Of a DNA stretch of 64,000 bases, positions 1,393 to 46,000 are shown one piece after another (position 1 is the first letter of the stretch; every line of letters begins with the position of its first letter). A program made the position numbers and the translations under genes. The notes under the pieces are model-generated. The model was given only the letters and a program-made list of their open reading frames with translations. It was not told the DNA's origin and did no database searches. The DNA comes from Sweltsa coloradensis (taxonomy: Eukaryota > Arthropoda > Insecta > Plecoptera > Chloroperlidae): NCBI GenBank assembly GCA_024449915.1, contig JAMZAV010000050.1, positions 310,001 to 374,000 on the forward strand, written 5' to 3'.

Positions 1393-4300
1393 ATTCTTAG
1401 CGGATTTGGGTATTTCCACGGACCAATTGGGAAACTTCCTGACCAAGAACCCTTTAATATTTAAAGAAGAACTAGATGACCTGCAAGTGAGAATTAATTA
1501 CTTACACTCGAAGCAGTTTACACCTGACATGGTACTTCGAGTGGTGGAGCAGAATCCCTATTGGCTGATGTTCAGGTGGGCTAGGCCTCTACTTATCTAA
1601 ACTGTCCTGCTATGTAGCAACAGGTGTCACGTTGATGTCTTCTTCTTCTCTTATGCCCACATGGACATCTGTCACTCATCATATGTCTTGTGTCCTTTTG
1701 GTATTTCTTCATAGTGTCCTTTCAGTGTAGCGCATCTAAATAGATGTGCAGAGAATATGCTGACTTTCAATCACACCTATTCTATGTAGGTGCTTTGCTA
1801 GCAATTCATGTTGTCATGTTGATGTTCACCAGACGTAGATGTGGCAGCCTACTCTTAGCATCTGCACGAGTATGGCGATCTCGATCAGTGAACAGTATTC
1901 TGAACCACTAACGCCTCCCCTCTCTGATTCTCTTCAACGATTTAAGTTCACTGCATCTGTGTATCTTGCAGATTTGTTAGAGTAAATAATACATAATACT
2001 CTAAACCGTGCGCACAAGGTATAATGTGTGAATAGTTTTTAACACGCCAGCTGCCATCTGCTCGGGAGTAGGGTGTGTGGCGGACTGCTTATCCCACAGT
2101 CTGCCACAAGAGTCACTGCCTGCTAACTCCTCATTTTTTCCATTTCTCTTTCCATCCGAAAATTAGGTCCACCGTCAACCATCTATGGTGCTTTTGGAAC
2201 TGTGTAACTCTTCTCTTAAACCTTTCCCACATGTTCCACTTGTTTTTAAGTTGGCACAATGGCATAGCCTACGTATTGCGTAGTTGGTAGTTGGCATCCT
2301 CATGGTGTGCCACTCAGCCAAGCACTGTTGAGGGTGCGTTGTTGTTTTTAAAACAACACTTTTTGCTATAGGACTAGTGTAATTATATCATGGCAATACA
2401 AGCCTTAAACTAGGATCTCAACACCTTGACTGACAATCATGTTTTAATCAGTAGCCCCTACTTGCTGATTAAGTATTAAGATGGACAAGATAAGAAGTAG
2501 TGTAATCAGAAAAGAGAGAGATTGAGGTTTAAACTGGTAAGAGAACATATGAAAAAGATGGGTAGGGAGAGGATCCCAAGACGAGAGTTTGAAGAGGCAG
2601 AGGAGGGAAAAGAAAAGTAGAAGGCCAAGAAAGAAATGGGGAAGATTAATTCAAGAAGACGTCGGAACGAGATGAAGTGTGGGAGCATGTGGCAAGAGCA
2701 AAGCTTTGGGGGGACAAAAGAGAGTGTAGTAAATAGATGGAGAGGAAGGAGGAAGATAATGAGGAAGAAACACTGTCTGGCAAGCTTAGTATCTACAGTT
2801 TCATGCCCTAGACTAGGAAAACGCTAAAGTCCCGCCGCGTTGATGGATGAGCTTTTTAAAGTTTAGTTTGCGTGGGATATCTTTACTTTTGCAAGTGCTT
2901 TGTTTTGCTGCCTACGCATTGTAGGTTTGATTGATTGATTGATTGAATATTGCTTAACGTCTCATATTTATGCACTTTGGCTAATCGAGACGATGAGTGG
3001 TGATAGATGAGGATGAAGTGTGAACAGAAGGGAGGAGGGGAAACCCGGTACCGGCACGTAGCCTACTCCTTTCGAAAAGTACCAAGGGGACCAACGGCTT
3101 AACGTCCCATCCGACAGGACGGTGTAACTTTGACAGTCATATAGGTTCCTCCACTAACCCGGGCTGCCGAGCAGACGTCAAGGAGAACGAAGCCGTTACA
3201 CTAGCTTTCGAACCCTCCATCTGCTCTAACCAGCGGTATACGTGAGTTTCAGGGTAGAGCGATCACCCACTCTACCCATGACCACGCCCGATTCTGCTTA
3301 ACTTCGGTGTTCGAGTGGGAACCGGTTAAACGAGCTCGGCTAAACCGCTGGCTGCATTGTAGGTGATTGTTGTCAAGTTTCTATTGTTTCTTGTCAATTG
3401 GTATTATTTACCGTAGAAATTATATTAAAAGCTTTATTTCTATGGATTCTGGTCAACTTTTTCTTTCAAAATGTACAACATCACCATAACCTTAATGTCC
3501 ATGTATAATATGAACGTTGTAGCCCCACCCGTTTGGTCAGAATCGGCCCAAATGGCACGAAAATATCGCACAAAAAATCGAAAAAAATCGTAAAAGTACA
3601 ATATTCATGAGAAATATTTCTTCGATTGTACCCAAAAACAATACAGCTCTAAGTTCAGAGATTTCGAAGGTCCCGTCAAATTTTCATCAAGATCGGATAT
3701 GCCGTTTGCCCGGTAGAGAGCGAACAAAAAGACAAAAAAAAACAAAAAAAAAAAACACCCGAGCTAAATTTTTTGGGGGTCAGTGAAATTGAAGTCTTTG
3801 CTTCGCTCATCCAATAATGGTGGCAACTGAAAAACCACCACTCAACCCAAAATAGTTGGAACTGAGTTTAGATTATTATTATTAATGTCTGAAAAATGGA
3901 TAGGGATTTTCAATTAATTTTTATGCTATGTTTTCTATGCTTTCCCAAACTGTCAACCCTTCTCCAATCTAAACCAATTAATTTGTATGTGTTTTTTAAA
4001 GTACTCCAAGGATAGACAGGCGCTTAGGTTACTTCCAGAAAGCATTCACACTGTCCGGCGCAGAAGTACGACACCTGGCCACAAAACAATCACGCCTCAT
4101 TACATACAATATGGCCCACGTACGGGTAAGTACATTTCGTTTTGGAAAACTCTAGCATAGCGTTAGTATTGTGAATACACTGGCAGGAAAACTAACTATG
4201 TAATTCTATTTTTTATTTTTAGTTTAACTTGTATCTACATTTTATAAATGGTAGCTCCCTGCAAAAATACTATGTTCCTTAGTGAGATTCCGCTAACACG

Positions 4301-9400: not shown

Positions 9401-10040
9401 CCGCGGCCGTCGAGACTAGGGAGCGGTGACGTAGGCACCCCCACCCCTCCAACTTTGAGGAGGGCTAGCTCTTGAACGGCTCGTGCGTTTGAGCTCGGGT
9501 TTTTACTAGGGTTATCGAAATCGTGTCAAAAATGTGTTTAATACATAAAAACGCGTTTTTGAAATTTACCCCACTTTAACTACAGCCCACCTTTAATTTA
9601 GGGTTAATTTGTATATGCATACAAATTAACAAGGTACAAGAAATCAGGGTAAACTAGCTGGTTATCCAGGAGAGTAGGGAACCAGGCGTGGAGAAATGTT
9701 TTCACCCTAGTTAGTAGGGGTAACAAAGGGTAGTGTCGCTTGCTACAGTGCGTTCCACCTAGAGATTGCAGTGCCATTCTTGCACGCAACTTTCTTACCC
9801 CGCCACGAGCTTCCCCCACCATCCGGCCGCTCGTGTGTTGCAGCGGTCGGTTGGAATTTCTACCTGACAAGATTTCCTCTATTGATAACGGCTTAACTCC
9901 AGTAGCACACTAAAAAAACAACAGATTCAAAATTTTGCTGCTTTTAATAATATATTTGGACTACTGAGTAAAAATAAACACGTTTCTATTTTTAAATCAT
10001 CAAAATCGACCAAATACTTCTGAAGTGAGGAACACTCGCG

Positions 10041-10125
<85 letters not shown>

Positions 10126-12719
10126 AGGTTTTTAAGTATAAGCCCGCTTTAAGGACATAGTTATTGATTCATAGCAATTGTCGTAAAAGTTTTCCCCGAC
10201 TGGGGATCGATTATCATTGTTAGCATCGTTACCAAAATAAGACACGTTAAGTCCAAATATAATCACAAACGAGCTAAATTATTAAAAACAATATGTAAAG
10301 CATGCACTCACCCACACACTCCACAAATACACAAATACGTAAATAGAGTGTACAATCATATTGAAACTCATGCTCGTGGGCCGGTAGCCTGCTGTTGCAC
10401 TTACAGACACACCCACATGTTGGTTTGTATATTGGTTAGTACACATAATTACAAGAGACAGTATAGAAAATTGTGTACCGGTGTATTTTCTATAGATGTT
10501 ATGTATAGCGTTTAGTTTCATAATATCGTATTGGTTGGCAACGTTTCCGAAAACAAAAACATATTGAACAATAGGCATTGACAGGAGTAGAATGGTGATC
10601 AAGATGTCGGTGATGATTAAACTTTACAATAATATTGTACACATTGTATTATGAATAATATAATATATTATTCATCGAGATGTTCCTTCAAAACAACGAA
10701 TCTTCGCAGTTCTTCAATCCAAAATCAAGAATTGAGCCTAATGATCAAAACAAAATTTCCAGATATTATTATTTCCAAGTGAATAGAATGGACGGGAAAT
10801 CCGTCGTTTCACAGACGAGTCGGAAATCATAAAATCCATTTATCAACATTCAGTATTGTTCAGTCAGTTGACTTGTGATCATCTTACTGCTCAGCTATGG
10901 ACGAGTCCCCTGACAAGTACACAGTGAAGAGATCGCGTGGTAAAACGTTGAAAAGTGCGGAAAGGAAGTTAGTGTTGAATGTTTACGCGAACGAACGTAA
11001 ACGATTTCCAAATAAGAGTGTGAATGAAGCGGCGGAGTCGGCTGCGTTGCTTTGTGGGGTTTCGTCGCGGACGGTTTTGAATTGTAAAAATGAGTTTAAC
11101 GCAAACGGTGGGCAGTTGGTCACACCAGGGAAGAAACGTCCACGAGCACCTGGCAACGAAAATACTCGTGTGGTTATTTATGAAGAGTTTGTCTTGAGTG
11201 CAATTCGTAATAAAGTCCATGGACTTTTTCGGAAGAATCTGCCTCCAACGGTGAATCGTGTGATGGAAGCCATCAACAGCGACGAAGACCTTCCAACTAT
11301 CGGACGCACGACGGTATTCAGGCTAATGAAGGATCTTGGCTTTGAATACAAGAAAAGACAGCGTCGGTCGATCTTCATTGAACGCGACGACATACAGCTC
11401 TGGAGACGTCGATATTTGCGTGCCATTAAAGTTGCTCGGCGAGACGGACGGCTCGTGTATTACCTCGACGAGACCTGGGTAAACGCGGGCCACGTTCTGT
11501 CGTCAGGGTGGGGGGATTCTACAATTAAGAGCGCAAAACAGGCGTTTTTATCCGGGCATACGACAGGATTAAAAAATCCTCCAGGAAAAGGAAAGCGCCT
11601 CGTCATAGGCCACGTGGGAAGTGATCAGGGCTTCGTAGAGGGCGGAGAGCTCGTGTTCGCAGCCATGAAGTCAACAGGTGACTATCATGAAGAGATGGAC
11701 GCAAACAAGTTTGAAAAGTGGATAGGAGAGCTTATACCAAAATTTCAACCTAACTCGGTGCTTGTAATAGATAATGCACCGTATCACACAAGAGTAGCGG
11801 AAAAAACTCCTGTACAGAGTTGGAAAAAAGCGGACATTCAGAACTGGCTGACATCTAAAGTAATCGCGTTCCAAGACAACATGACAAAAGTGGAATTAAT
11901 GGCTCTGGTGAATGAAAACAAGCCAGCCTATAAAAAGTACGTCCCTGACGAAATGATGAAGGCCGCTGGGCACACCATCATTCGTTTACCTCCATACCAT
12001 TGCGAGCTCAACCCTATTGAGATGGTATGGAGCCAGTTGAAACGATTCATTGCGAGCAACAACACGTCATTTAACATCAAGGACATAAAACAACTGGTGG
12101 GAGAAGGGTTCAATGATGTGACGCCGCAGCAATGGAGTAATTATGTCAGAAATGTCATAAAACGTGAAGACGAAATGTGGGAGCTCGACGGTATGACAGA
12201 TGAAATTGTCGAACAAATGATAATCAACATCAACGATGACTCGGACTCCAGTGACGACGACGAGGACACAGAGGAACTCGCCAGACCCCTGGATTAACTC
12301 CATCAACACCCTCGGCCCTTTTTAGGGCCACAATTGATTATTTGAGCACCGGGTTGATGTATTTGAACAACACGAGGTTTAAATAATTAATTGTAAAACT
12401 AAATCACCGCCGACCTCTTGATCACAATTAAAATAGCAGATAGACCAATACAAGAATAATATACAAACCAACATGTGGGTGTGTCTGAAGTGCAACAGCA
12501 GGCTACTGGCCCACGAGCGTGAGTCTTAATATGATTGTACACTCTATTTACGCATTTGTGTATTTGTGGAGTGCGTGGGTGAGTGCATGCTTTACATATT
12601 GTTTTTAATAATTTATCAACTTAGCTTGTTTGTGATTATATTTGGGCTTTACGTGTCATATTTTGGTAACGACGCTGATAATGATAATGATAATACCTAA
12701 TAATAATAAAAATAATTTT

Positions 12720-12772
<53 letters not shown>

Positions 12773-12937
12773 ATATAAGGTTTTTAAGCATAAGCCCGCT
12801 TTAAGGACATAGTTATTGATTCATAGCAGTTGTAATAAAAGTTTGCCCCGACTGGGGTTCGAACCCAGAACCTCCGGCTTAACGTGCCCACATAGCTCTA
12901 CCAATTGAGCAAACTTTTATTACAACTGCTATGAATC

Positions 12938-13006
<69 letters not shown>

Positions 13007-16000
13007 TAATAACACAACAAAAGCAATTTATAATAAAGGTTTGTCTTGTGTCCTCGATACCTCAATTGGTAGAGATCTGGCACGTTCAGCCAGAGGTTCT
13101 GGGTTCGATCCCCAGTCGGGGAAAACTTTTACGACAATTGCTATGAATCAATAACTATGTCCTTCAAGCGGGCTTATGCTTAAAAACCTTATATTATTAT
13201 ATTATTATATATTATATTATAAACTATTACATAGCGTTATTCCTCGTAATGTCACTTGATATTGTTAGACATTGCTCAAAGAGGCAAATGTTCTTCACTT
13301 CAGAAGTATTTGGTCAATTTTGATGATTTAAAAATAGAAACGTGTTTATTTTTACTCAGTAGTCCAAATATATTATTAAAAGCAGCAAAATTTTGAATCT
13401 GTTGTTTTTTTAGTGTGCTACTGGAGTTAAGCCGTTATCAATAGGGGAAATCTTGTCAGGTATAAATTCCAACCGACCGCTGCATCACACGAGCGGCCGG
13501 ATGGTGGGGGAAGCTCGTGGCGGGGTAAGAAAGTTGCGTGCAAGAATGGCACTGCAATCTCTAGGTGGAACGCACTGTAGCATGCAAGTCGAGTTTGAGG
13601 TGAAAACCCGAGCCAGCTACGTGTTTGTGGGCTCAGGAATGTGGCAAAGTAGGCCAACAGTGCTGTTTTCGCCGAGAATTCGTTGTTGAATTGCATAAAT
13701 GGCAACATCGGATGTGCGAGTGCATGTAACGATCACGAGATTGTCGCATAAAGCGAAATCACCCTGACTGTCATGCAGATCAGTGCACGCTTGTCCAAAG
13801 GCCATTGGTAGAATTTGAACTCGCGGGCGTGCTAACCCAATCAGAGGGAGGATCTAGTCCTCTGAGCGGAAGGGTTGGAAGCAAGCAAGGACCCACCGAA
13901 CGTTACCTCGTCCACTATTGCAAGATTCCTGGAAGAGACGAGTCGAACTTGTTAGCAGTGCAAATCGAGTTTTAGCAAGCATGGGAAATATCACTCGGGA
14001 AATCGAGGCAAGTTGGCCAGAATGTTCCAATATTAGGGCAGATCTAGTGCCGAGTTACTAGATATGTTTTCCATCGCTTAAATTACCGTTTTTTGTGATA
14101 GCTTAGTACTACAGGCTAGCCACATGGTCTAGACCAGTGACCATGCGCGAGTGATTTTTATAACAACCGCATTTATATGGTAAATTCTCACTCTAAACCA
14201 TACAGGAGTGGCATGAAAATGCAACTTAAAGTACATAAATCATTTTATTAACCGATAGTCGCGCGTTTAGTAACTTTGGCATGACCAACCACGTGGTTCA
14301 ACGAAAGGCATCGGCTACACCATCATCAAGGATCTTCAACTGAACAAGTAAGCTATATCTGTCCCAATTCACTATACGTCCCCCCATGTTTGTATGTGAA
14401 GCTGAGAACGTCGAGGTCTTCAGAGGGACCTAACGGAACCTAGCCTGGGTGTGTGATATCCGGTCCGCCACTGGAGCTTGACCCAGATATTGCATCGGCT
14501 ACCGGCGAGCAGGCGCTAGGTGCGTCCGAGCCAACAATAGCCACCCACATCCCCGGCTACCTCCGTGCATCGCAGAGCAACGCTCTCAAGCCCCCCCCCC
14601 CCCCTCTTACCCGCTTCAAGAAGCCAGCACATTTTAGGGAAACAGACGATCTTACATATTATAATAAGTCATAATATTGTATTGTAGTAGGAATTTACAT
14701 GTATACTTTTCTTTCACGTTGGATCCAACCTAAATTCAAAAACCTTGATGTCAGTAGTTAGTATTTCGAAATTGCTCAATAATAATGCAACTTATTTTTA
14801 TTCAAATCTTTCATTGAGTCGGCATACGTATCCTAGTTTACTCTTGCTCACTCGTAATCTACTTCACAAGCCTTCAGCAAATATAGCAATATTTTCGTTG
14901 GATACTTTCATAGCTCGTAGTAACCAGCATCTAGGTGAACGAGCGGAACCTGCAGCTCTCTGGAGGGGACGCGGCTCAGCGCTAGCGAGCCAGGTCAGGT
15001 ACCTCTTCTCCCCTCACCGGGAGAAGTTGTATTAAGTTATGTTCTCACCTTGTCACTGTACATGTTCATACTTGTCCGTGTAATTAGGGTAGGTCATTTT
15101 CACTTCAGTAGCAACGTAGGCAAGATTCAGTTGGGACGGTCCAAATACCATCAGAGGAACAATAGGGTGCGCAACGTGTATAAAACCCCGAGATTAAATA
15201 ATTACACGATTACCATTTTGTCAACCTCGATAGGTTTGTCAGTTCCTATCCGCTACAACATACCCAGTGTAAATTAGTGTAGGGTTCGTAGTTTTCAAAA
15301 TACAGTAGGCGGTAGGCCCTATTAAATTTTTCCACAATGAAGATTTATTTTTTGTGCATACTCAGAAAGGTGATGCCTCATAGTCATACATGATTGATCA
15401 AATTTTGGTACCGGTAACACACAATTTTTAAATGTCGATGAAAAATGACGTCTTTTTTGTGGACTTTGAGGACTCGCAGGAAAAAATCTGTGTGACAAAG
15501 AGCTCTACCTAGGTATTTACAAGAAATAATAAGTTATGTATAGTGTAAAGAGCTCTACCTAGGTATTTACAAGAAACAATAAGTTTTATTTAGTGTAAAG
15601 AGCTCTACCTAGGTATTTGCAAGAAATAATAAGTTATATTCTGTTGGCGGGCAAAAACAGAACAAGAAAGTTGTGATTTTCCTGCATGTAAAGCGAAAAG
15701 TACGTAGGTACCCAAGTCACTACCTCCTAGGAGAGTAGGTAGGTACTGCACGAGCGTCCGCACACAAGCCTCTTACGGTAAATAAATCAGCGACCAAAAT
15801 ATGTTTTAGGTAGCAAATGTTAAATGTAAATTGTAAACAAACTTAAAAAAAAGAAATGAATGAAGGCCATATCAGGTAGAATTGATGTAACCAATTTGTC
15901 ACAGGACACATTAGACTAACTTAACATATCTGTAACTAACTAGGCAATTCAATTACTAATTAATTAGTGCAGAATGATGGAAGGCTAAATCATAATAATT

Positions 16001-28000: not shown

Positions 28001-31000
28001 CCTTACTTAAGATGGAAACAAGGAGTCAGATAGATATATATTATTATTAAAAATCCAAACAATTTTTTCAATTTTTTCTCACTCCCCCTCCATCATAATT
28101 AGCCTACAAGTGTTCTGAAACAAAATTTGAGCAAATAAATCCATTTTTCTGAGGAATTGTAGGGCTGTAAAAGAAGGGAGAAGAGTCTGGGGAGGCCAAG
28201 GAAGAGATGGAAGGAAACCATAGCAAGCAACTTCCAAACAAGAGGAGAGAGCTGGAGGAAAATGGAAGAGATAGAATAATTGAGGGAGGATAGAAAGAAA
28301 TTAAGAAAATTGGTTGCAAAACTCAAGCTGACCCATGAAATGGCAATGGATGATGATGGTGGTGGTCCAGTAAATTAATTATTGGTGCAAGAAATTTTGT
28401 TCATCTAGGTAAAATGATACTAAAAAACATTTTGTGTATGTATGGAATCCCATCCCAAATGTTTTAAAAGGGGAAATAGTTGAGGGGGGGGGGGGTAAGC
28501 TATCCTCGGGGATAAGAACACTTGGCTTCCTTATGGCACTGTTTATTGGTTTGGCTAATATGCCCATAAAGAGAAATTTTTGACGGTACTTGGGGAAACA
28601 TAATATAGGAAGCTTCAACCACACTGGTACAATCAGGAATCAATAAATTTAACTAGGAAGCTTCGCAAACGCTTTTTTTTTGTCGCGTTGATGGATGAGC
28701 TCTTTTGTAAGTTTCTAGTTTGAGTGGGATCTCTTCACTTATCAAGTGCTTTTTGAACGCATTGTAGGTGATTGTTGTCAAGTTTCTATTGTTACTTAAT
28801 TCTTAATTGAAATACCTCAAAAAACTTAATTTAAAACCTTTATTTATATGGTTACTGGATAATTTGTTTTAACTTTTTCTTTCAAAAAGCAATACATCAC
28901 CATTACCTTAATGTCCATGTGAAATATGAACGTTGTAGCCCCACCCGTTTGGTCAGAATCGGCCCAAATGTCACGAAAATATTGCACTCAAAATAGTAAA
29001 AGTACGATATTCATGAGAAATATTTCTTCGATTGTACCCAAAAACGTGGCAAGTCTTTAGAGAAAACAAAGGACCCCTCCAATTTTCGTCAGGATCGCAT
29101 ATGCCGTTTGCCCGGTAGCGTGCGAACAAACAGACAGAAAAACTAACAAAAAACAAAACACCCGAGCTATTTTTCTTGGGGTAACGTAAGTGGAAAAAAA
29201 AAACAAAAATACAGAAAGTCAAATTGAAGTCTTTGCTTCCCTCATCCAATAATTTTAAACTGGAACTTACCATGTACATGATTGATAGAGAAACTCTGGC
29301 CTGGTGCTATGTGAAAGCTTCCTCCAACCTAGAATTGAGAAGTAATTCAACAAGGGCTTCTAAAAACTGAAGTATAGGCTAGTCTAGTCTTGATACGTAC
29401 AAAACTAACATTTAAATTCAGTACGGCCTATGCAAGGTAAATACTTTAAATACTTGTGACAATAAGCTTATAGCTTGTCAAGTTTGGCTTTGGGCCGTGG
29501 TGGGCAAAGATTGCAATTTTCACATGGCTACGATAGGCGGATAGGAAGAAATCACGTATTTTTCATCGCCAACACTAAAATTTTAAAATGAGTACAACTC
29601 AAAATGTCAATATAATATATAATATTATTCTTCCAGTAACATACTTTTTATCAGCCACGAAACGGTGGGTCTATTTCTAAAGCATTGAAAGTGGCCAGCT
29701 GGCATAGCCCTTAGACCTGCTTTTACATGGTTCCAGCTTTTAATTGTTTGTTTTTTTAAACAAAGAATGCATGCATGAAATATGATAGGCCTATTTTATT
29801 TTAGAATATTAGGGCTATGCGTATATTCTACTGTAGAGTATGTGATATAGATTGAATATTCTACATATTATTCTACAATTTGTATAAAAAAAAAATTTCA
29901 TTTACAGTTAATTTATGATCTGAGGAAGATTTTTTATTTTTTTATTAACATAGTAGCCTAACTCGTTGTTTTCTTTGACAAATTTGAAGCCTTCTATCAC
30001 TCGGTCACTCCACCTGTAATGCTGTGGCTTATCTGCCATTTTGAAAACTGAGGAGAAAATTAGTCGATTTCGTCGGGGCCTACAGAGTTGACTTGGTCGC
30101 TTTGGTTTACTGTCCCCCACTGAAAATCAGTTATAGGCCTATGACTGAGTGGGTAAACTCTAATTTATATGAATTTATTTATTTTGTTTAAGTCGAGCAA
30201 ACTTCCTGATTGGTTATGGGATTTATGGCTTGATAACCACTGATTGGCTAAATATTCTTTATGGTAGAAAATTTGAATTATTTGTAATCATTGCTAACAT
30301 TCAATAGGCCTAGTTGGCCTTTGCACTCATATCATTGGCTCATGCAACTCAAATTATGCAACTTAAAATTGTATTATTAATTACAATTAGTATTAAGGTA
30401 GGGGCCTAGGCCTTTTATTTTTATTTTTATTATTTTTATTATTATTTTCACTTTAGGGGCTCATACAAATTAAATTATTTCTTTACAAGAAATCACCCAA
30501 TTAAAGTATAAAAATAATAGGTAAGTAAGCCTAGCAGAGGTGTGAAGGATGTAGGCCTATGCTCCAAACTTAATTTCTGTTTTTAACTTTTTTCTTGCAC
30601 ATTATATAAACAACAGAACAAATAAATTAATACTTTACATATTCTACATATTCTACACTATTTTCAATGCGTAAGTAGAAAAATAATATTCTACGTGTAA
30701 TGACCCAACCCTGCCAATCACACAATCCAAATACTGATCGCTGATTGGCCACTTTTTCCTTTCGAATGATGCCATCATCGGCAAGGTTAGTTTGGAACTA
30801 CTACGTAGTACGTATGCATACGAAAGAAAAGCACAGGTTGCCTCTAACTTACCCGGTTGACTTCCATGTAACCGTATATTTGACACGCCTCCAGGAATGC
30901 TGATTTTAGCTTTTCAGAATAGTGTTCTGATTTGCACTGCACAATACTTTCCAAGTCGAGGGGAAACGCCCACTTTTTATTTCTGTATGCCTCCTTGACT

Positions 31001-34000
31001 TGCTCGCAAGTGTTGCAGCAACTAGAAAGAAAATGTGTATTTTACATTGGAGAGTGGGGAGAGGAAAAAGAAATGCCACAAGAATTTTCAGAAGGACAAA
31101 ACGCATTGTGTATTAAAGTCACAGAAAACTTTATATTTTTCAGTCTTCATCAGCAGGTATGAAAATGGTTGTTTTTCTAAACCTGTCAACTCTCTTCTAA
31201 TCCAAACCAATAAATAAAAGTAGGTAGGTAGCACATATTTTTATTTAATTTATTATTAATAATCATCACATAAACAGCCTACGAGGCCACCGAATTGAGA
31301 CGCGAGTCAGGATTTTCTTCTAGTGTAGGAGGGTAATGCATGCAACTATGCACTAAGGTGAATCTGTTGACCTTACTTAAGTTGTTGTTAAAAAACTCTT
31401 AATTAAACTACCTAAGTAACGGTTATAATAATTTATTGTATTTTACCTGCCCAGAGGGCAGGAAGGCTAATGCAGGGCAAGTGTGCCCTCTGTAGCCTAA
31501 CACAGTGATAACAGAGTTACAAATTAAACATTACATGAAAACAACAAGAGAACATGACATTTATAAAGTTAGACAAATTGAAAGGCAAAAGGCGGATAGG
31601 GGTACTTGAATCGCGGTAGAGGTCTGAAGACTCGAGGACGCGAAACGAGGTCGTGAAGCTCATTCCTGCCGCCTGCTTGAAGACGTTGCACGTAAGCCCC
31701 TGCGAGGGTGTCGAGTCGAGCGCTGATACCACCGACGCCGGTTTGGGCATACACGTCTTCATTCCGCGTCATCGGAGGAAGCCGCGCGATGCGGCGAAGG
31801 ATTCTTCGCTCCAGCGAGAAGTATTGCTGGAGACATCCTCCAAAGACGGGTGTCAGCGCCGGGGCCGCGTATTCAAAGAGGGGACGGATGAAAGTTTTAT
31901 AAGTGTGCCGTAGAGTGCGGAAACTGCATCCAGAAAGTCGCCCACTAAGCATCACGAGTAAATTTAGTCTCGACCGCGCACGGTTGATGACGTCACGGCA
32001 ATGAGCACCCCAGTTCAGAATGTCTGTAAAGGTTACTCCAAGGTACTTGGCAGACCGACTAGGGTACACCGTAGCGCCCCAAAGTGAGATGGACTGACGG
32101 AGTGGTCGTTGAGACATTTTCTGCGTTTTGTGCCGGTGGTGAAAAAGGATAAGCTGTGTCTTTAAGGCGTTCGGCAATACACGCCAACGACGCATCCAAG
32201 CTTCCAGAGCTTTAATTTGGCGCTGTAGACGTCGGAAGACTTCTCTCGCTGTGCGCCCTTTGCACCAGTAGGCTGTGTCGTCTGCATAGAGGGCTAAGGC
32301 AAGGTAACGGGACAAGGGAGGAGGAATATCGTGGCAGTAGATCAGGTAGAGAAGAGGTGAGAGGCAGGAACCTTGAGGCACGCCAGAAAGAGGGGTAACG
32401 AGTGGGATACTTGATCGTTAACACGCACACAAGCGAGACGTCCCGTGAGAAAAGCTCGGATGAAGCGCACCATTACAAAAGGGACTCTTAGTTGCAGCAG
32501 CTTGTAACAGAGCCCGTCATGCCAAACCTTGTCAAAGGCGCGTGATATGTCCAGAAAAATAGCTAGCACACACTGGCCATCGTTTAGCGCCCCTGAAACC
32601 TGACTATATAGTTTCAAATTATCAATATGTTGTTATGTAGCAATAAGTACCTACCGTACATTCAATTTTTACGAAAACTTTGATTTAAATATATGCAGGC
32701 AGAGCTAGTATAGCACTTTGACTGTGCTATAGCCAAGCTTGCAATTGTAGCGTTGTTAATGACACTTTGCACGGCTTTTATAGCACTTGCAACGAATCTA
32801 GAATCCTAGCAATGAAGGATGTAGGCCTAGCCCTATTTCTTTTACTTTTCTGCACATTATATAAACACAACAATAATATACATTCTAATATTTCATATTC
32901 ACTAATATTCTACATATTCTCACTATTCTATGGTAGTAGAAAAATATATTTACGTGTAATGACCAACCTGCCAATCACACAATCAATACTGATCGCTGAT
33001 TGGCCACTTTTCCTTTCGAATGATGCCATCATCGCAAGGTTAGTTTGGAACTTACGTAGTACGTATGCATACGAAAGAAAGCACAGGTTGCCTCTAACTA
33101 CCGGTTGACTCCATGTAACCGTATATTTGACACGCCTCCAGGAATGCTGATTTAGCTTTTCAGATAGTGTTCTGATTTGACTGCACAATACTTTCCAAGT
33201 CGAGGGGAAACGCCCACTTTTTATTTCTGTATGCCTCCTTGACTTGCTCGCAAGTGTTGCAGCAACTAGGAAGAAAATGTGTATTTTTACATGGAGTGGG
33301 GAGAGGCAAAAGAAATGCCACAAGAATTTTCAGAAGGACAAAATGCTTGTGTATTAAGTCACAGAAACTATATTTTCAGTCTTCATCAGCAGGTATGAAA
33401 ATGGTTGTTTTTCTAAACCAGTCAACTCTCTTTATAATCCAAACCAATAAATAAAAGTAGGTAGGTAGCACTAGTTATTTAATTTATTATTATAATCATC
33501 ACATAAAAGCTAGAGCCACCGAAGTGATGAGCGCGAGTCAGGATTCTTCTAGTGTAGGAGGGTAATGCATGCACTATGCACAAAGGTGAATCTGTTGACC
33601 TTACTTAAGTTGTTGTTAAAAAACTCTTAATTAAACTACCTAAGTAACGGTTATAGACTATATAGTTTCAAATTATCAATATGTTGTTATGTAGCAATAA
33701 GTACCTACCGGTACATTCAATTTTTACGAAAACTTTGATTTTAAAATAATATGCAGGCAAGAGCTAGTATAGCACATTTGACTGTGCTATAGCCAAGAGC
33801 TTGCAATTTGTAGTATTGTTTCCTTTCGTTTTCGAATCCCAGTCACAATTAGTAGGGCAGCCTCTCTCGTTGCCACGGGTCTTGGTTCAAATCCAGGGTA
33901 AGACATGGTTCTTTTGTCGCCCAAGCACCAGAGTCTAGGAGGGAAGCCCCCTCACTGGTTGTGCTGTGTTGTGACTTTCCATCCTTCCTATCTCTAACCC

Positions 34001-37000
34001 TTTCTCTTAGAATGAATGAAGAGGCACCCTTGCCCAGCAACAGCAGGAGGGGCAGCTTTTCTCTTGTTGCCAAGGGTCCTGGTTCGAATCCAGGGTAAGT
34101 CATAGGAATTTCTTGTCTCCCGAGCACCAGAGTTGGGAGGGAAGCCCTCTTACTGTTTGTGCTGACTGTGTGCCCCAGTATGAATGGTGTGTGAAGTAAC
34201 CTTGCTGATGATGACAACATGCATGCAGAATTTACTTCTTGCGTGGCCCTACCACAGGTTTTGTTATGTGTTGTGAGTTTTGTTTGCATGTAGCTAGCTG
34301 ATTTTTAGTGGCCACCATCCGCCTGATGAGTCCCAGAAGGACGAAACGCGTCGTGGATTAAGGTAACAAACAACTTTAAATTAGCTGCAGTTGTCATCAG
34401 CAGGTGAAAAGTTTTGTCGCCCCCAGCCCTTCAGGCTGGGTTTTATGTTCTCTATGCTTTCCCAACCTGTCAACCCTTCTCCAATCTATACTAATATACA
34501 ATTATTAAATTAAATTGCTTTAATTATGTTGTTAGTACCTTAACTCCTCTGTTTCTGCTCCATAGCAGCTTCCACACTTGTTTTCTGCAGTTTTGTTTTG
34601 TTCTGCCTGTAGAAGAAACATCAACCAATTAATATTGCTCTAGGGGAATCCCTAACAAATTGAAAACATTTTGTTGAAAATGATTAGCCTAGCCTAGATA
34701 GTGTGACCTTGAGCGTTGCCAGCACGCTGATGATACCCGAGGTTTTCATTTGAGCATGATAGGCCTATGCCTAATGGTCCGAAAGTCAAATCCACCGCAT
34801 TCTGAATGTATTTATCTATTGAAGTTATTTGACGTGACAACAAAAGAAAATTACCGTTATAGTACCTGTTTCGGCTGAGCAAGCCCTCGAATTAACAAAT
34901 GTAAGACACTCTATTACCGCGATATGCTAGGGTCTATAATTTTCACCTATATTTACTTTTGTGACAGCCATAAAGAAACAAAACAGATGACAGCTACTCA
35001 AATTTGGCGGGTGTCGGCCATGTTTTTGCTCAACGTGGTCCGAAACTTTGCCTTGCCCGTAATGCCATGGCTGCTGAAACCAAAGCCTCTTCAATAACTT
35101 TCTAACTGTAGCCTGTGTAAGGTGTTCATTTGTCAACTCTTTCCTGTGTATTTGTAGGTAATTGAAACTTGGCTATTAAATAATATTTACAATCCAAACA
35201 ATTGGGGTGGATTTTTTCAAGTTGCCTAATGAGCAGGTCTGAGAATCCTAGAATGTCAGTGTTGGCCCTCTCACTGGACCTTTACATACATTTACTCACA
35301 GCCCAGATGTTGAATTGCAACATTACAACAGGTAGCACCCATGCTCATGGGTAAGTGCAAGCACAGTATACCAATAATATACAGTAGCAAAACACGCTGT
35401 CAAACGTCACGCGCGCCCCTAGCGAAAGAAAGAATCAACTAACAATGACTGGCCACAGCAGAGTCGATAAAATTGCCCATTGCCTAACGGGGAAACTTCT
35501 TTATCGACTCTGCTGTGGCCAGTCGTCCTTAGTTGAGTCGTACTTTCGCTAGGTCGCGCTAGTTGCGTGGCGGTACGCGCAGCCGACAACGACAGCAAAT
35601 CATCCTGCAGGCAGTGCATTGAAGTTTCGCTACTGTAAGAGATTGTTATACTGTGGTGCAAGTCAGTCTCAAACTTTCAGGACATCAAATAAAAATTATG
35701 TTATATCAGTTTGATTCACCTCAAGGAATTTAAATTTAAAACATTTTTTGGAAGACAATCTTAACTAGTTTAGGCCTAGATTTGTAATTTATAGTTTTAT
35801 TAGTACTTTTATTACTTATTTTTTTATAAGTAATTTTTGTATGGCCTATTACTCACTTTATTTCTTAATGTGGATTCTCCAATATCTGCAACAATAAAAA
35901 ATTATAGTTGGTCACCCATGGATAGAAATTAAAAATATCATCATCTAATTAAAATATATTGCAAATTTTATAGTAAGGTATCATTGCGTATAATCATTTA
36001 GAAAGAGCATTCTGCATTGTGAATAAATTGTGTAATTGAAATTTCATCAAGCATAGAATTGCCAACGGTTTCTACTAGCACTAGGCCTATGTTATCAGCA
36101 CGTTATCAATAATAACCAATGATTTTTTTATGCGAACCTGGCTATTAACCTTGAGCTTCGTTGAGAGAAGTAAGCCTACTGTAAACACTGACATAGGTAT
36201 ACCGGTAGTACTAAGCTCCATGGCACAACGGGCATTTGGAGGGTTCAAAGAATCTACATGATATATTCCCCAACAGTCAGACCTAGAGAAGTTAAGTGGA
36301 CGGACCTATCCCCAAACAAAATTGTCTCAAAACTGTCAGCCCAACATGCCCAGCGGGAAATATGAAGGACACCGCGAACGGGGATTGTTAATATTCAATA
36401 CTTTAATTAAATTATAATTGTTGTAACAGTGTAAATGTTTCTTGTCTGGACATTGAACATGCACAAGCGACATTTTACATTGCACCCAAGTCTAGCACAA
36501 TACAATAGGCTACCACAGATAGAATGCAACGTCAAGCCTACAGTTACTTTATTTTTTAAGACAGCAAATATATATCTTGACCCCTTTTCAACATTAAATC
36601 GGATTGGGGGGAGCAGTATCACACTATCCCGTTTCTTGCGCTAACAGCTTCGTTGTCGGCTAGCCAGGCCTGATAGATAAATAAATAAATAAATAAATAA
36701 ATAAGCCTTCATTTGTATTTGATTTTGGACTCTACTTCAATTAAGTGGCTGCACACCAGTCTTGTCACGGACACCATCGATAAGAGAACAGTTGCCAAAC
36801 AACCCTCATTATTGCGCTGGTTGGCCACAATTCACTAGCGGATGACACCTACATCACGAGTCTAGTTCTGAACCAGATATTTTTTTCTATTTTTATGTCT
36901 TTATTATTAGTTTTTTACTGGGTGTGCACTTTGTTACTAGAACGGCTTCAATGTCGCCATTTACCCAACAGAGCTATATTAGGCTATATCATATCAATTT

Positions 37001-40000: not shown

Positions 40001-43000
40001 TCTTAATCATGATCAAGACCTTCTGTTCCTTGCTTCTGACGTCACGGATGGTTGATGACGTTAAATCAAGAATGAGATCAAGGAAAATTACTCAACAAAA
40101 TGTTTGCATTGTAAGCAAAGCAACTCAAGAATAGCCCTCCAGTACCCAGCTAATAAAATAATGCAAACCAGCGGCACTTACAGTCACATGAAATTGATGG
40201 AATGACAAAGTCAATATTTATTCTTAACTTTGAACCTCTTGATGTGTCGACAAATAATTCTTCCGATACATTTGGAGACAAGTAATCATTTAGTTCAGAG
40301 CAGAACAATAAAACCATTATAATACCACTCAACACGGTCACTGAAACAAATAACAACATAGTATGCATGTTAAAAATGTATTTTATGTACACAATACAGG
40401 TTGATCCACAATACGGAAGCCCGGGAATGAGGCCCGGCAACAGTATCTGGAAGGTTGGCTACGATCATTTAATCTTGCCCTACAACTGTAAGGGTAACGG
40501 GAAGGGAAGTTATTGCCGGCCTATTGTAGAGCGGGCCTAATAATAAAAAAATTAAATAATAAAATCAGTTATATGATGTGGGTAGACTAGAGGTCTGCAC
40601 GGGCCTACATCTAAGAGCCCGGCCCAGCCTGGGCCCGTATTAACGTAGATGATCGAAGCCCAGGCCCACCTGAAGTGTTAGTCGGCCCGTTACGACCCAT
40701 ACCAACACAATGTATTAGGTACTATTTTATTACCATCGTCGAGCCCCACTTCAGCGACAATGACAAGAAAAAAATAAGTAAATAGACACTGTGACATTTG
40801 CCATGCAATCAGTGATCCAAGCAGTGTTGGGTAGGAACGGAACTAGGAACTAAGGGAGGAACTAGTTCCTTTTTTCAGACAGGAACTAAGGGAGGAACTA
40901 GTTCCAATTTTCCAGGAACTGTAACTTATTTTCATAAGTTCCTTTTTTATTAACTTGACTGTACAAATTTAAGGAATGAAAGAGTCAAATCATAGTTTAC
41001 TTACAAGATGAAGGGATTGTGAAATACTCCATTTCCAGGAAATCTAAAATTTGCCTCTATTGTTCTAAATTCTTGTCATACCCCCATCCCTATTCCTACA
41101 CTCAGTGGTCAACCCCATCCCCATGGGTTTCTCACCATTATTAGTCGCATTGCCAGCTAAACTTCACCCTTGAGTTTTGAATGATCTTTTGGGGTCCATC
41201 ATCAACCCAAAGATCATTCAAAATTGATACACAGCCAGCGAAAGCCTACATAATCATCCACATATTTAATTCCTCCAAATCTCAAACAGAGTTTATGCAT
41301 TCTTTGCAAATACTTAGTTTTACCTATACATTGACCCTCTCGAGAAGATCTAAAGAAAAATGGTTATTGAAAAAAAGGAACTTTTTAGGAACTTAGTTCC
41401 ATTTGGAAAGGAACTTAGGAACGCCCTAGTTCCTTTTATTTTAGAGGAACTTGGAACTGGAAAGAGTTCCTTTTTCTTATGAGGAACTTGTAACTGGAAC
41501 TAGTTCCATTTTTTGAGGAACTTACCCAACTCTGGATCCAAGCCGCCACAATCCCCCATCGTCCATCCAAACATAGGCGGCGCGATGTCTGCCAAGACGT
41601 CACACATAACGATTTCACGTTAGTAGGCCTATATCATATATTTACAATAAACATTCCTATCGGAACCCAAGTTCCAATTGCCGTGGCTACACTTATCTTG
41701 ATGAAAAAATAATTAAAATGTTGTAACAGGAAGTTTAGGCCTGTACGATTACGGGAAACAAAGGGTTTTTAATTTTGATTACAAATACCACTTTCAAATG
41801 ACATTAAAAAGCCTGAAAAACCCGCCTTATTCAGAGAAAAGCAGGCCCGGGCCCGTGCAGACCTCTAGAGTATAGCCTACTCTAAATACGAATTTATTTA
41901 TTTATTTAACAAGGAAAAGCGAATAAAATAAGTAATAGTTACCAGAACTGATTTTCAGTAGGTAGACTAGGTCCTATTAGTGATGACATCGGGTAGTAAA
42001 TATTGGAGTCGACTCCGGAGCCTTGGGAACTGGGTAGGAGTCGACTCCCCGATCCGCAATAATAATAAAAAATTAAAAAATGTGCAATTTTTTTTTTATT
42101 TGATTTTTTGTATGCAAAAGTTATTTTTAGCCCACTACTCTAGTTGCAAAACGCTGTCCGGCCGTTTCCCCCCCCCCCCCCCGCTACGTATCACTAACTT
42201 GCTTGTCTCTTGGCCCGGCCAAGACTCTCGCTGATTTGTTATGTTTACGTTTTGAGATAAGATAACGACTAACGAGACAACAAGTGCAATCTCATTCAAT
42301 TTATCATAAAAAAAAGAAAATTCGACTCCTTGAAAATGGAGTCGACTCCGACAGGAGTCGAGTAGGAGTCGGGTACCCGAGTACCCGATGTCATCCCTAG
42401 TAGGTATGTAGGCCTAGCACTGTAGCCCCAAATCACCCTTGTGGAAAACAAAATCAACAAGCAATAGGCCTAGGCCTAATGGCCAAACAATCGGGATTCA
42501 GAATAAAAGACAGTTGGTTAGCCACCGTGGATAATGCCAGCAACAACAAAGGTGGGTACGTAGATTGGAAAACCTAACTGATGTGATATTATTCACTAGT
42601 ATAGGCCTACCACAGCAGTCAATCCGAATTGACTGAATTCGGTTCGAGTTCAATTTGGTTTGACTTGAAGTGTATATATCACGGACATTTGAAGTGACTT
42701 CCTCAATCCTATTTTGATTCAAATTGAAGTTGTTGTTTAATTAGTATAAACAATAATTGGACTCATCATGTTCTTTTAGTAAATTAATATTAAATTAAAG
42801 GTAAAGCAATATTTCGGGTACTTTCAGTACCCTTCAAAAGGCAACAAACCAAACAAAACATAAAACTCCGAGTCCCAGCCAAGGTCGACACATCTAACAA
42901 ACACGGCCATCTTGATCTCAATAAAAAATACATATTCAAATAAAAAATAAAAATTATACCACAATCATGCCCACAATAGTTCTATGGCTTGGGGACAAAC

Positions 43001-46000
43001 TCTTTCCAAATCGCCGGGAAATCAATGCTGGGAGCACTGATAACATCAGCAGCCACAGGCATCAAGGCATCAAGGCTGCCTTGTATTGTATTGTATTGTT
43101 TTTCATTATTATTGTATTTTGTTACAAGTCTCAAAAAATCTATAATTTTGTCCTTGATGTATCTTATAAGTGACTGACAAGTATGTTTACATAACATGTA
43201 AATTAATGGATGGAGATTATTGCAAGAGTTAGGGCTTAATAATGTGATCAATTGTACTAGCCCATATTTTGTGGGCATATGTTTCTTTATGGTGGTAAAT
43301 TTGATTGTTTTATAATTATATACAGAATGTATGATGTATGTGATGATAATGTGTTGTATGACATGTAAAATAGCAAAAATGCTAATAAAGATATACTACT
43401 ACTACTACTTAATGTCTGTGGCTGCTGACGTTATCAGTGCTCCCAGCATTGATTTCCCGGCGATTTGGAAAGAGTTTGTCCCCAAGCCATAGAACTATTG
43501 TGGGCATGATTGTGGTATAATTTTTATTTTTTATTTGAATATGTATTTTTTATTGAGATCAAGATGGCCGTGTTTGTTAGATGTGTCGACCTTGGCTGGG
43601 AGACGGAGTTTTATGTTTTGTTTTGTTTGTTGCCTTTTGAAGGGTACTGAAAGTACCCGAAATATTGCTTTACCTTTAATTTAATATATTAATTTACTAA
43701 AAGAACACTTATTGTTTATACTAATTAAACCTAACTGTTCTAAGAATCTCAGTAGTTATAAAAAAAAAGAAGTTGTTGTTGCAGTTTAAGAAGATGCTAC
43801 AAGATTCTATAAATACCTAACACTTCAAATTACTATGTACACGTATCTCTACCTACAGCTACGTAAATATAAAGCCTAATGTCTACATTAAAGCCCCTAG
43901 AAGACTCCATTTATTGTAAATGTGTAATAAACAATGCCTGCCTAATAGTGGTATTAACTGAAATCTAAATCTCTAAGGCAGTGTTGATCCGTATTCAACT
44001 GTAATTCAGGTAATTTACTCAAGTCAATCCACTTTGGAAAGTGGATTGACTTCAATTCGAATCGAGTGTGTATATCAAGAGACTCAAACCGAATTGAACT
44101 CAAAAAACCAACTTGAGTCAATTTGGATTGACTGCTATGGTATATACGCAGTGATTGATGAAGAAATGCTTAAGTACCGATAATAAATGAGATTTTAAGA
44201 TAAGTGATGATACCCAAGTTTTATGAAAATATATCTTCAAATCTTCAGGTTGGTGGAAGCCTGGTTTTCTTCACTCCTTTTCTAGATTTCCCTCATATCC
44301 GTGAAGGCTGGTAGGCGGTATCCCCCATTGGCAGGGACTTCAGTCTAATTTTGAAGCCTTTGAGATTTTTTCTCCCTACTAGGCCTAGCCCTTCGATGAG
44401 CCCGTTCTACTCCATCATCGTCCTTATCAGGGCAAGGAAAACTTTCACACAACTGCCCCCCAGGTTTCCCTCAAACTTGCACCCCCCCCATGAGGTATAG
44501 CCCTACTTGTGCAGCTATTTAGCCCTCACCATTCCTCCTTAGTCTAGATTCTAGAACCTTTTTCTTGTTAGGCTTAGCCCTATCCTTTCTCTTATATCCC
44601 AAATGCCTGAGAGTACCTGACTAGAGCTGAGCGCGTGTCGTGAGTCACGCGTGACTCACGCATGACTCACGACATTTATCGTGAGTGTGCGTGAGTGTGG
44701 ACCCAATGGAATTAGTCGTGAGTGATTGTGCAAGATACTTGACTCACGCGTGAATCGTGACACGCGTGATTGTGCGTGTCACGTTATCTATTTGGCTATC
44801 AATCGACGAATAAATACCTTTTCTAGAATTATGAACCTACTTCTCTACCATCCTACCTACCCTACACTTTACCCTATTTCAGTTGTCCTCTTCTCGCGGT
44901 TCGTGCAGTACGTTGCTTGCTATGTTCGGTCAGTTTATTTTGTGTGTGCTTTGCTCATAGTGTTGTATGTGTTGTGATTTGTGATTTGTTTCAAGCTCTG
45001 TAGTGTTATTTGTAAGGTAGGCACAATAAACAAACATCATATTTCGTTGCTGTTTTAGCCTGTCAGGAATCAGGTAACGTCGTGAGTAGTGCTTAAATAA
45101 CATTGTAGGCCTAAAACACATTCATTGTAACTTCATCTGAGTAAAGTCGTGACTTGTGCGTCACTGAATACGATGTATGACATGGTGTGAGTGCATTATG
45201 GAAAAATGAATTTTTTGCGTGAGTGTGCGTGAGTGTGAAGCGATAATATCCGTTCGTGCGTGAGTGTGCGTGATTAGAGAATGTTCGCTCGTGATCGTGA
45301 CCCTGCGTGAGTCAAAAGTCACTCACGCGCTCACCTCTATACCTGACCATCTCTGTTGCACTCTCATTACACTCTTAGAACTCTTACACTTTGCTCCTCC
45401 TCAGTCCACTTTCTCTCTTTCCGGAGTTCTCTCCTGCCAATCTATGGATGCGCCCAGAGGCGGCTCTACCATCAGGGCATTGAGGCATGTGCCCCTCCTA
45501 CTCTTCCCGACAATAATCACTCACATTTTCGAGTTGTAGACGTCGTGGTACACATTTACATAAAATCAAATAGTTTGTATTTTCAATGTGAGCGCGCGCG
45601 CGGTAAGGAAACAGCAAACAACGCTTAACTGGAATGAGCCTACTACGGGCTAGACGAAGTTGCGCCCAGGTTGCGCCTGCGCAGTCAGTTTTATTCGGAA
45701 ATAGCCGAATCGTTGCCTCGCAATAAGCGTTGGAACTCCGGCAGGATGGGCATGATTTTAGTCGGCCGAGCTGTTGTGGGAGAACACGTTACGCGCTGCT
45801 GCGTTGTGCGGGTAATCGAGGATTCGCCGTGTCCAAAGAAAGAAGAGTAGGTACAACTTATTTACAGGCATTAAAATACCAGGTAAATTTGCATATGCTG
45901 CTATTATCTTCTTTTACTTTAAGCAAGGTCAAAAAATATAGATAAATTACCAGTTTTAAATGATAACTGATTTGTGCCCAGGCCCGTATTAAACCATTCT

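Follow-up and report, generated by a model that had tools for sequence, protein, structure and literature searches.

A complete hammerhead ribozyme in an intron of ERGIC3 raises the question of whether it serves the surrounding gene or belongs to a mobile element, and, in the latter case, of what moves that element. The window analysed here is a stretch of 64,000 nucleotides from Sweltsa coloradensis, and the genome searched along with it comprises 1.45 Gb. We conclude, with a probability of roughly 0.7, that the ribozyme is part of a ~967-bp non-coding tandem repeat, predicted to cleave itself as RNA and likely copied into new sites in trans, with both the reverse transcriptase and the GIY-YIG endonuclease supplied by Penelope-like elements (PLEs).

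The hammerhead in the window

The Rfam covariance-model scan of the window reports Hammerhead_1 (RF00163) at 34317-34358 on the plus strand with 41.2 bits against a cut-off of 34 (E = 4.7e-7 for a search of the window with 4,227 Rfam families), exactly where the preliminary description had placed a complete hammerhead; no other hammerhead on either strand of the window exceeds the cut-off. The conserved core, the three helices, and the score assign it to type I. Stem I (ATCCGC at 34317-34322, GTGGAT at 34353-34358) has 6 bp and encloses the core CTGATGA (34323-34329), stem II (GTCC at 34330-34333, GGAC at 34339-34342) around CAGAA, then GAAACGC, whose GAAA occupies 34343-34346, and finally GTC, ending in C17 at 34352, after which the cut is predicted. 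All core elements are present as originally claimed; the addition that they show no deviation needs one small correction, namely a single G-U wobble in stem I.

The very short stem III noted earlier is also present, but its form is not that of the PLE-like elements of this genome, which read GAAACGTC. Helix III consists of an A-U pair closing a palindromic CGCG (together ACGCGT, 34346-34351, plus strand), and pairing between two ribozymes is predicted for it. The type I hammerheads of newt and axolotl, as described in PMC7229834, share the one-base-pair helix III and the palindromic tetraloop; the amphibian units, however, are 330-350 bp long, and they were compared with our unit by description. 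According to the same source, the axolotl form of helix III cleaves weakly as a monomer and efficiently as a dimer. As for the hammerhead of the window, the predicted fold of one strand has a mispaired core (−10.7 kcal/mol), while two strands are predicted to form a dimeric hammerhead (−27.5 kcal/mol).

A chance motif was rejected on the basis of the Rfam score and of the genomic core matches given below. A second hammerhead-like string, at 31624, was discarded as well: it is antisense to a LINE reading frame and absent from a relaxed Rfam scan of 30000-36000.

The repeat family in the genome

The exact core pattern has 2,023 matches genome-wide (1,006 + 1,017), and the full 42-nt hammerhead with up to 3 mismatches has 2,976, compared with 0 for the reversed control in both cases. 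The genome scan with the Rfam hammerhead model yields 70 matches at E ≤ 0.001, of which 69 exceed the cut-off (74 places scored); its 174,555 first-look candidates are no copy count. Among the 51 matches listed by the DNA similarity search, most long ones are 97-100% identical. The family is real and large, with many nearly identical copies, which agrees with the mobile dispersed family initially proposed and with the covariance-model hits in window and genome that were suggested as its check. Viral contigs searched with two exact patterns contained no copy.

Sixty loci were fetched, 30 via DNA similarity to 34100-34520 and 30 via the hammerhead model, and all 30 of the latter contain the same repeat. 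They define a unit of ~967 bp with a GC content of 48% (unit positions are written with a prefix u); an additional base at its end brings the query string, taken from locus L004, to 968 letters. The doubled unit contains no sense frame above 80 codons, the longest having exactly 80. Locus counts below refer to 57 non-overlapping loci, leaving out L005, which overlaps L018, and L027 and L050, which form near-duplicate pairs with L026 and L049, respectively.

Dimeric repeats around the hits, which the preliminary description had recommended looking for, are common: 29 of the 57 loci hold 35 tandem junctions, tails included, with at least 200 bp following the junction in 20 (16 loci) and a tail of at most 50 bp in 14. 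Head-to-head junctions number 16 in 15 loci, and tail-to-tail junctions are absent from all 57. A further set, made up of 98 sites on contigs C3-C72 where the core matches exactly, contains 12 tandem pairs with spacings of 963-1032 bp, along with 11 head-to-head pairs and no tail-to-tail pair.

The window copies and their ERGIC3 setting

The window hammerhead (u790-u831, with the predicted cut after u825) lies in a 5'-truncated copy of 743 bp at 33752-34494 on the plus strand, which spans u227-u967 and is 99% identical to the L004-derived unit over that range. The copy ends at 34494 with no tail past the unit end, its 3' end (34480-34494, plus strand) being the first of two 3'-end sites discussed below. 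It includes two imperfect internal repeats (33855-33966 and 34050-34164, plus strand) that are 82% identical to each other, each carrying a B-box-like GGTTCRAATCC, at u359 and u556 of the unit; that these words act as a promoter is only a guess. As a lone monomer, the copy is probably nearly inert.

Other pieces of the repeat are found nearby. The shared tail words reported near 3935 correspond to a short 5'-truncated copy (u917-967) at 3927-3978 on the plus strand with 92% identity over 52 nt. Of the two decayed copies originally listed at 31085 and 33320, the first is confirmed: 31086-31215 (plus strand) is old, decayed sequence related to the hammerhead and the 3' region (nhmmer E = 3.5e-9; blastn 78% over 79 nt), located in an ERGIC3 intron beside a real exon. 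The second (33303-33458, plus strand), however, lies inside a duplicated exon segment and is the same insertion seen twice. Two independent copies were rejected, since 30543-31427 and 32813-33655 are versions of one exon-bearing segment, whose alignment of 904 columns shows 10 mismatches but 54 gap openings, 46 of them in the second version. The beginning of the element (u227-295, ~69 bp) recurs at 32694-32757 on the plus strand, where it belongs to the duplicated segment's other version. Within 30543-33820 the exon segment thus stands twice, and its second version is rich in single-base gaps and has an exon with a stop, which makes the duplication probably a low-quality assembly artefact. A LINE fragment with an RVT_1 domain (31435-32601, minus strand) is present in just one of the versions.

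According to tblastn with a human ERGIC3 sequence, the ERGIC3 exons occupy the minus strand between 46659 and 6324. The exon at 34538-34582 (minus strand), upstream of the element's intron in gene sense, has an E-value of 0.26, weak alone but in order with the others; the next exon (30847-31020, minus strand) is intact (E = 3.4e-15), and its copy with the stop is found at 33109-33264 on the same strand (E = 3.7e-8). The nearest relatives of the joined protein are those of Anabrus simplex (77% identity) and of Gryllus longicercus (76%), both ensiferan orthopterans, so that by this protein the genome looks orthopteran-like.

The location inside an ERGIC3 intron, between exons 34582-34538 and 31020-30847, is therefore as first described, but the ribozyme is antisense to the gene, since the exons are on the minus strand and the hammerhead on the plus strand. 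A ribozyme serving the ERGIC3 transcript could draw on this location and on the intronic hammerheads of amniotes (PMC3088659). Its antisense orientation, for which this reading was rejected, and its being one among 2,023 dispersed core copies leave it next to no likelihood.

Elsewhere in the window, a DNA transposon at 9738-13585 has inverted ends of ~300 bp (97%) and an open DDE_3 transposase frame of 472 aa (10879-12297), with a best match of 69% identity and named relatives mostly from arthropods; ARAGORN calls a tRNA-Asn within it. A 5S rRNA match at 3228-3352 on the minus strand (40.9 bits, cut-off 38) is a candidate gene, pseudogene, or 5S-derived SINE. The palindromic stretch 35423-35546 yields several microRNA matches below the threshold, found on both strands, and resembles a small inverted-repeat element, and 42787-43687 consists of two 280-nt arms, 98% complementary, around a 341-nt spacer.

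Insertion ends and target sites

While the 5' starts of the copies are scattered along the unit, their 3' ends are concentrated at two sites. Among 72 3' ends in the 57 loci, taken as BLAST alignment ends, 35 fall at u964-969 and 25 lie within the next unit, 19-35 nt past its start, which leaves 12 at other positions. Both edges could be seen for 53 insertions, and in 25 of these they share words of at least 9 bp, 20 of which are not simple repeats, compared with means of 1.4 and 0.8, respectively, for 200 mispairings of the flanks; the remaining 28 have no such word. Flanks are 72% AT versus 62% elsewhere in the loci. Ten head-to-head compound insertions each lie within one pair of shared target words, which suggests that they entered as single events. 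Two loci, L017 and L024, carry a short inverted 3'-end piece between target word and body.

These edges and the fixed 3' ends are the grounds on which a satellite-only reading was rejected. Such a reading, an array spread by unequal crossing-over, would account for the tandem spacing of ~967 bp and has a precedent in pDo500 of Dolichopoda cave crickets, ensiferan orthopterans whose satellite DNA holds a hammerhead (PMC2837043). As described there, pDo500 likewise has the hammerhead in a tandem repeat and a variable core position 7; its satellite units, however, are ~500 bp long, and it was compared with our unit by description. The arrays found here are short, and the 100 places listed span contigs C9 to C13568, so that together with the edges an origin as satellite appears extremely improbable.

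The same ends match those reported for PLEs. According to PMC3846280, PLE insertions have an optional 31-bp tail, an inverted pseudo-LTR (pLTR), and a 9-bp duplication, and PMC11167929 describes a 30-40 bp tail from two start sites of reverse transcription as well as AT-rich cleavage. As presented in these two papers, PLEs and their pLTRs share with the repeat tandem and head-to-head arrangement, 5' truncation, target duplications, AT-rich targets, an optional tail of ~20-35 nt from a second 3'-end site, and a hammerhead upstream of the 3'-end sites. The optional tail with its two 3'-end sites and the inverted head-to-head copies within one insertion are both PLE features, and the GC content below 50% and target duplications above 4 bp are features of metazoan retrozymes.

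Movement of an animal retrozyme by an ordinary LINE would also be compatible with 5' truncation and with target duplications of ~9-17 bp, and the window does contain an RVT_1 LINE. Two 3'-end sites over the unit-unit junction and 16 head-to-head junctions are, however, PLE marks in the accounts of PMC3846280 and PMC11167929, and a LINE as the mover is accordingly very unlikely.

As for the template, run-off copies of cut RNA would make 5' ends accumulate at the cut site. Among 38 pieces that had not themselves retrieved their locus, none begins at u826, the nearest starts being u815 and u833; as this sample is small and all remaining pieces had been chosen because they span the site, this is a hint only. 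Twenty of the pieces not used to find the locus extend to the 3' end, and in 11 of these the sequence continues across the cut site.

Variation of the ribozyme

The 57 loci contain 80 hammerheads, of which 76 retain the ACGCGT helix III. Core position 7 is variable (T in 54, A in 15, and C in 11 of the 80). The conserved-core copies that the preliminary description had expected in the genome are thus abundant, but the compensatory changes it expected in the stems were not found: all stem changes among the 80 are one-sided, with no two-sided case. These changes preserve the pair in all but one case, although the hammerheads were chosen by pairing, so pair retention is not independent evidence. 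Slower evolution of the hammerhead was not seen in 19 neighbouring copies, one of which had itself been a search match (19 of 793 sites changed, versus 129 of 4,848 in the flanks), and for this reason no selection on the hammerhead is claimed.

Counts for 42-nt windows of the unit, each with up to 3 mismatches, likewise give no sign of slower evolution; they are 2,114 for u740-781, whose pattern has one letter missing from most listed copies, 2,976 for the hammerhead, and 5,036 for u845-886. The excess of u845-886 sites likely represents short 5'-truncated pieces; an autonomous or hammerhead-less sister with a common 3' end, perhaps a helper, is possible. Upstream of u833 in L004 no alternative element was seen.

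PLE-like loci of the genome

One genome search for GIY-YIG gave 28 matches. Among them, L061 (G000:C13:322328-322555) holds a bacterial-type UvrC frame with UvrC RNase H, GIY-YIG, and UVR domains, which may be a symbiont, a contaminant, or a transfer. A PLE-like 3'-end query, whose text was copied from the GIY-YIG loci themselves, is matched by 20 of the 27 others, and 26 hammerhead-like motifs, some overlapping, are found in 20 GIY-YIG loci. These elements give 31 distinct 3'-end matches after removal by hand of seven in overlapping loci: 15 are at one site, 12 lie ~36 nt further, a distance bounded by the query end, and 4 are elsewhere. L089 has inverted flanks of 515 bp. Pfam finds GIY-YIG in L077 and L080 and reports no reverse transcriptase domain in a putatively RT-like frame of L080. 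We call these loci PLE-like on the basis of endonuclease, motif, and end structure.

The motif of L064-L090 has an ATG within stem II and no helix III loop, and a comparison of copies suggests changes in both strands of its stem II (GGATCC/GGATCC, GGAACC/GGTTCC). In a scan of five such loci the motif stays below the Rfam cut-off, in contrast to the hammerhead of the unit, which lies above it and has the palindromic ACGCGT.

A further explanation is that the unit is the pLTR of an unsampled autonomous PLE, and its copies solo or tandem pLTRs moved by this parent. PLE pLTRs show the same combination of tandem and inverted arrangement with tails. Moreover, an intact hammerhead core in register is missing from 61 of the 91 sites on contigs C3-C72 that match u845-886 exactly, and the 3' end may thus belong to another family as well. 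On the other hand, none of the 28 GIY-YIG loci of the search matches the unit, the motif-bearing ones carry a different hammerhead, and insertions between shared target words hold units only (flanks were fetched over 1.5 kb). We consider this explanation unlikely. Unlike PLEs, the unit lacks a long sense frame, and a PLE reverse transcriptase with GIY-YIG endonuclease is not encoded in it.

A retrozyme-like element with PLE insertion marks

The best reading of the anatomy, based on sequence, is a retrozyme-like non-autonomous element, larger than those described, with the insertion marks of PLEs; since its scars match those of Penelope retrotransposons, the PLE machinery is the likely mover. 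The link to retrozymes and Penelope proposed at the outset was right in spirit and is stronger than first thought, now that PLE-type insertion marks have been found. The reviewed literature points the same way: PLEs are called a 'strong candidate' for the mover of animal retrozymes (PMC7229834), and retrozymes 'may rely on PLEs' (PMC8969392).

With the metazoan non-LTR retrozymes of PMC7229834 the repeat shares the type I hammerhead, non-coding tandem repeats, a GC content below 50%, target duplications above 4 bp, and PLEs in the same genome. Those retrozymes, however, have repeats of 150-450 bp and RNAs of ~170-400 nt as reported there, versus a unit of ~967 bp, and many copies here are lone, truncated, or inverted. 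As the unit is outside the reported range, the repeat, known here from DNA alone, is not filed as a plain metazoan retrozyme.

The following mechanism can be proposed. In a transcript of at least two units, the palindromic helix III would pair between copies, and the resulting dimeric hammerhead would cut the multimeric transcript; a ligase may then close the product into a ~967-nt ring. A PLE protein would nick AT-rich DNA, and reverse transcription would start at the unit end or 19-35 nt on, within the next unit, so that the template crossing the unit-unit junction would be a ring or an uncut multimer. Such a circular or uncut multimeric template would be needed to explain tails that continue past the unit-unit junction and bodies that extend over the cut site. 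It agrees with PLE insertion in vitro being independent of hammerhead cleavage (PMC11167929) and with the circle model of PMC7229834, and the copies fit both alike. We give even odds to the more specific claim that this is a kilobase-sized retrozyme parasitic on PLEs, whose dimeric ribozyme makes a circular template, copied from rings or uncut multimers and not from cut linear RNA.

In a literature judged mostly by titles and abstract openings, no report of a PLE tail on a retrozyme was found. Two-site PLE tails on a large copy family are sequence evidence for PLEs as movers of retrozymes, and the family offers a ready substrate on which PLE mobilisation of retrozymes can be tested. With its unit of ~967 bp, the family also extends the size range known for animal retrozymes. 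If the kilobase-sized retrozyme is real, each of its insertions records the machinery that moves retrozymes.
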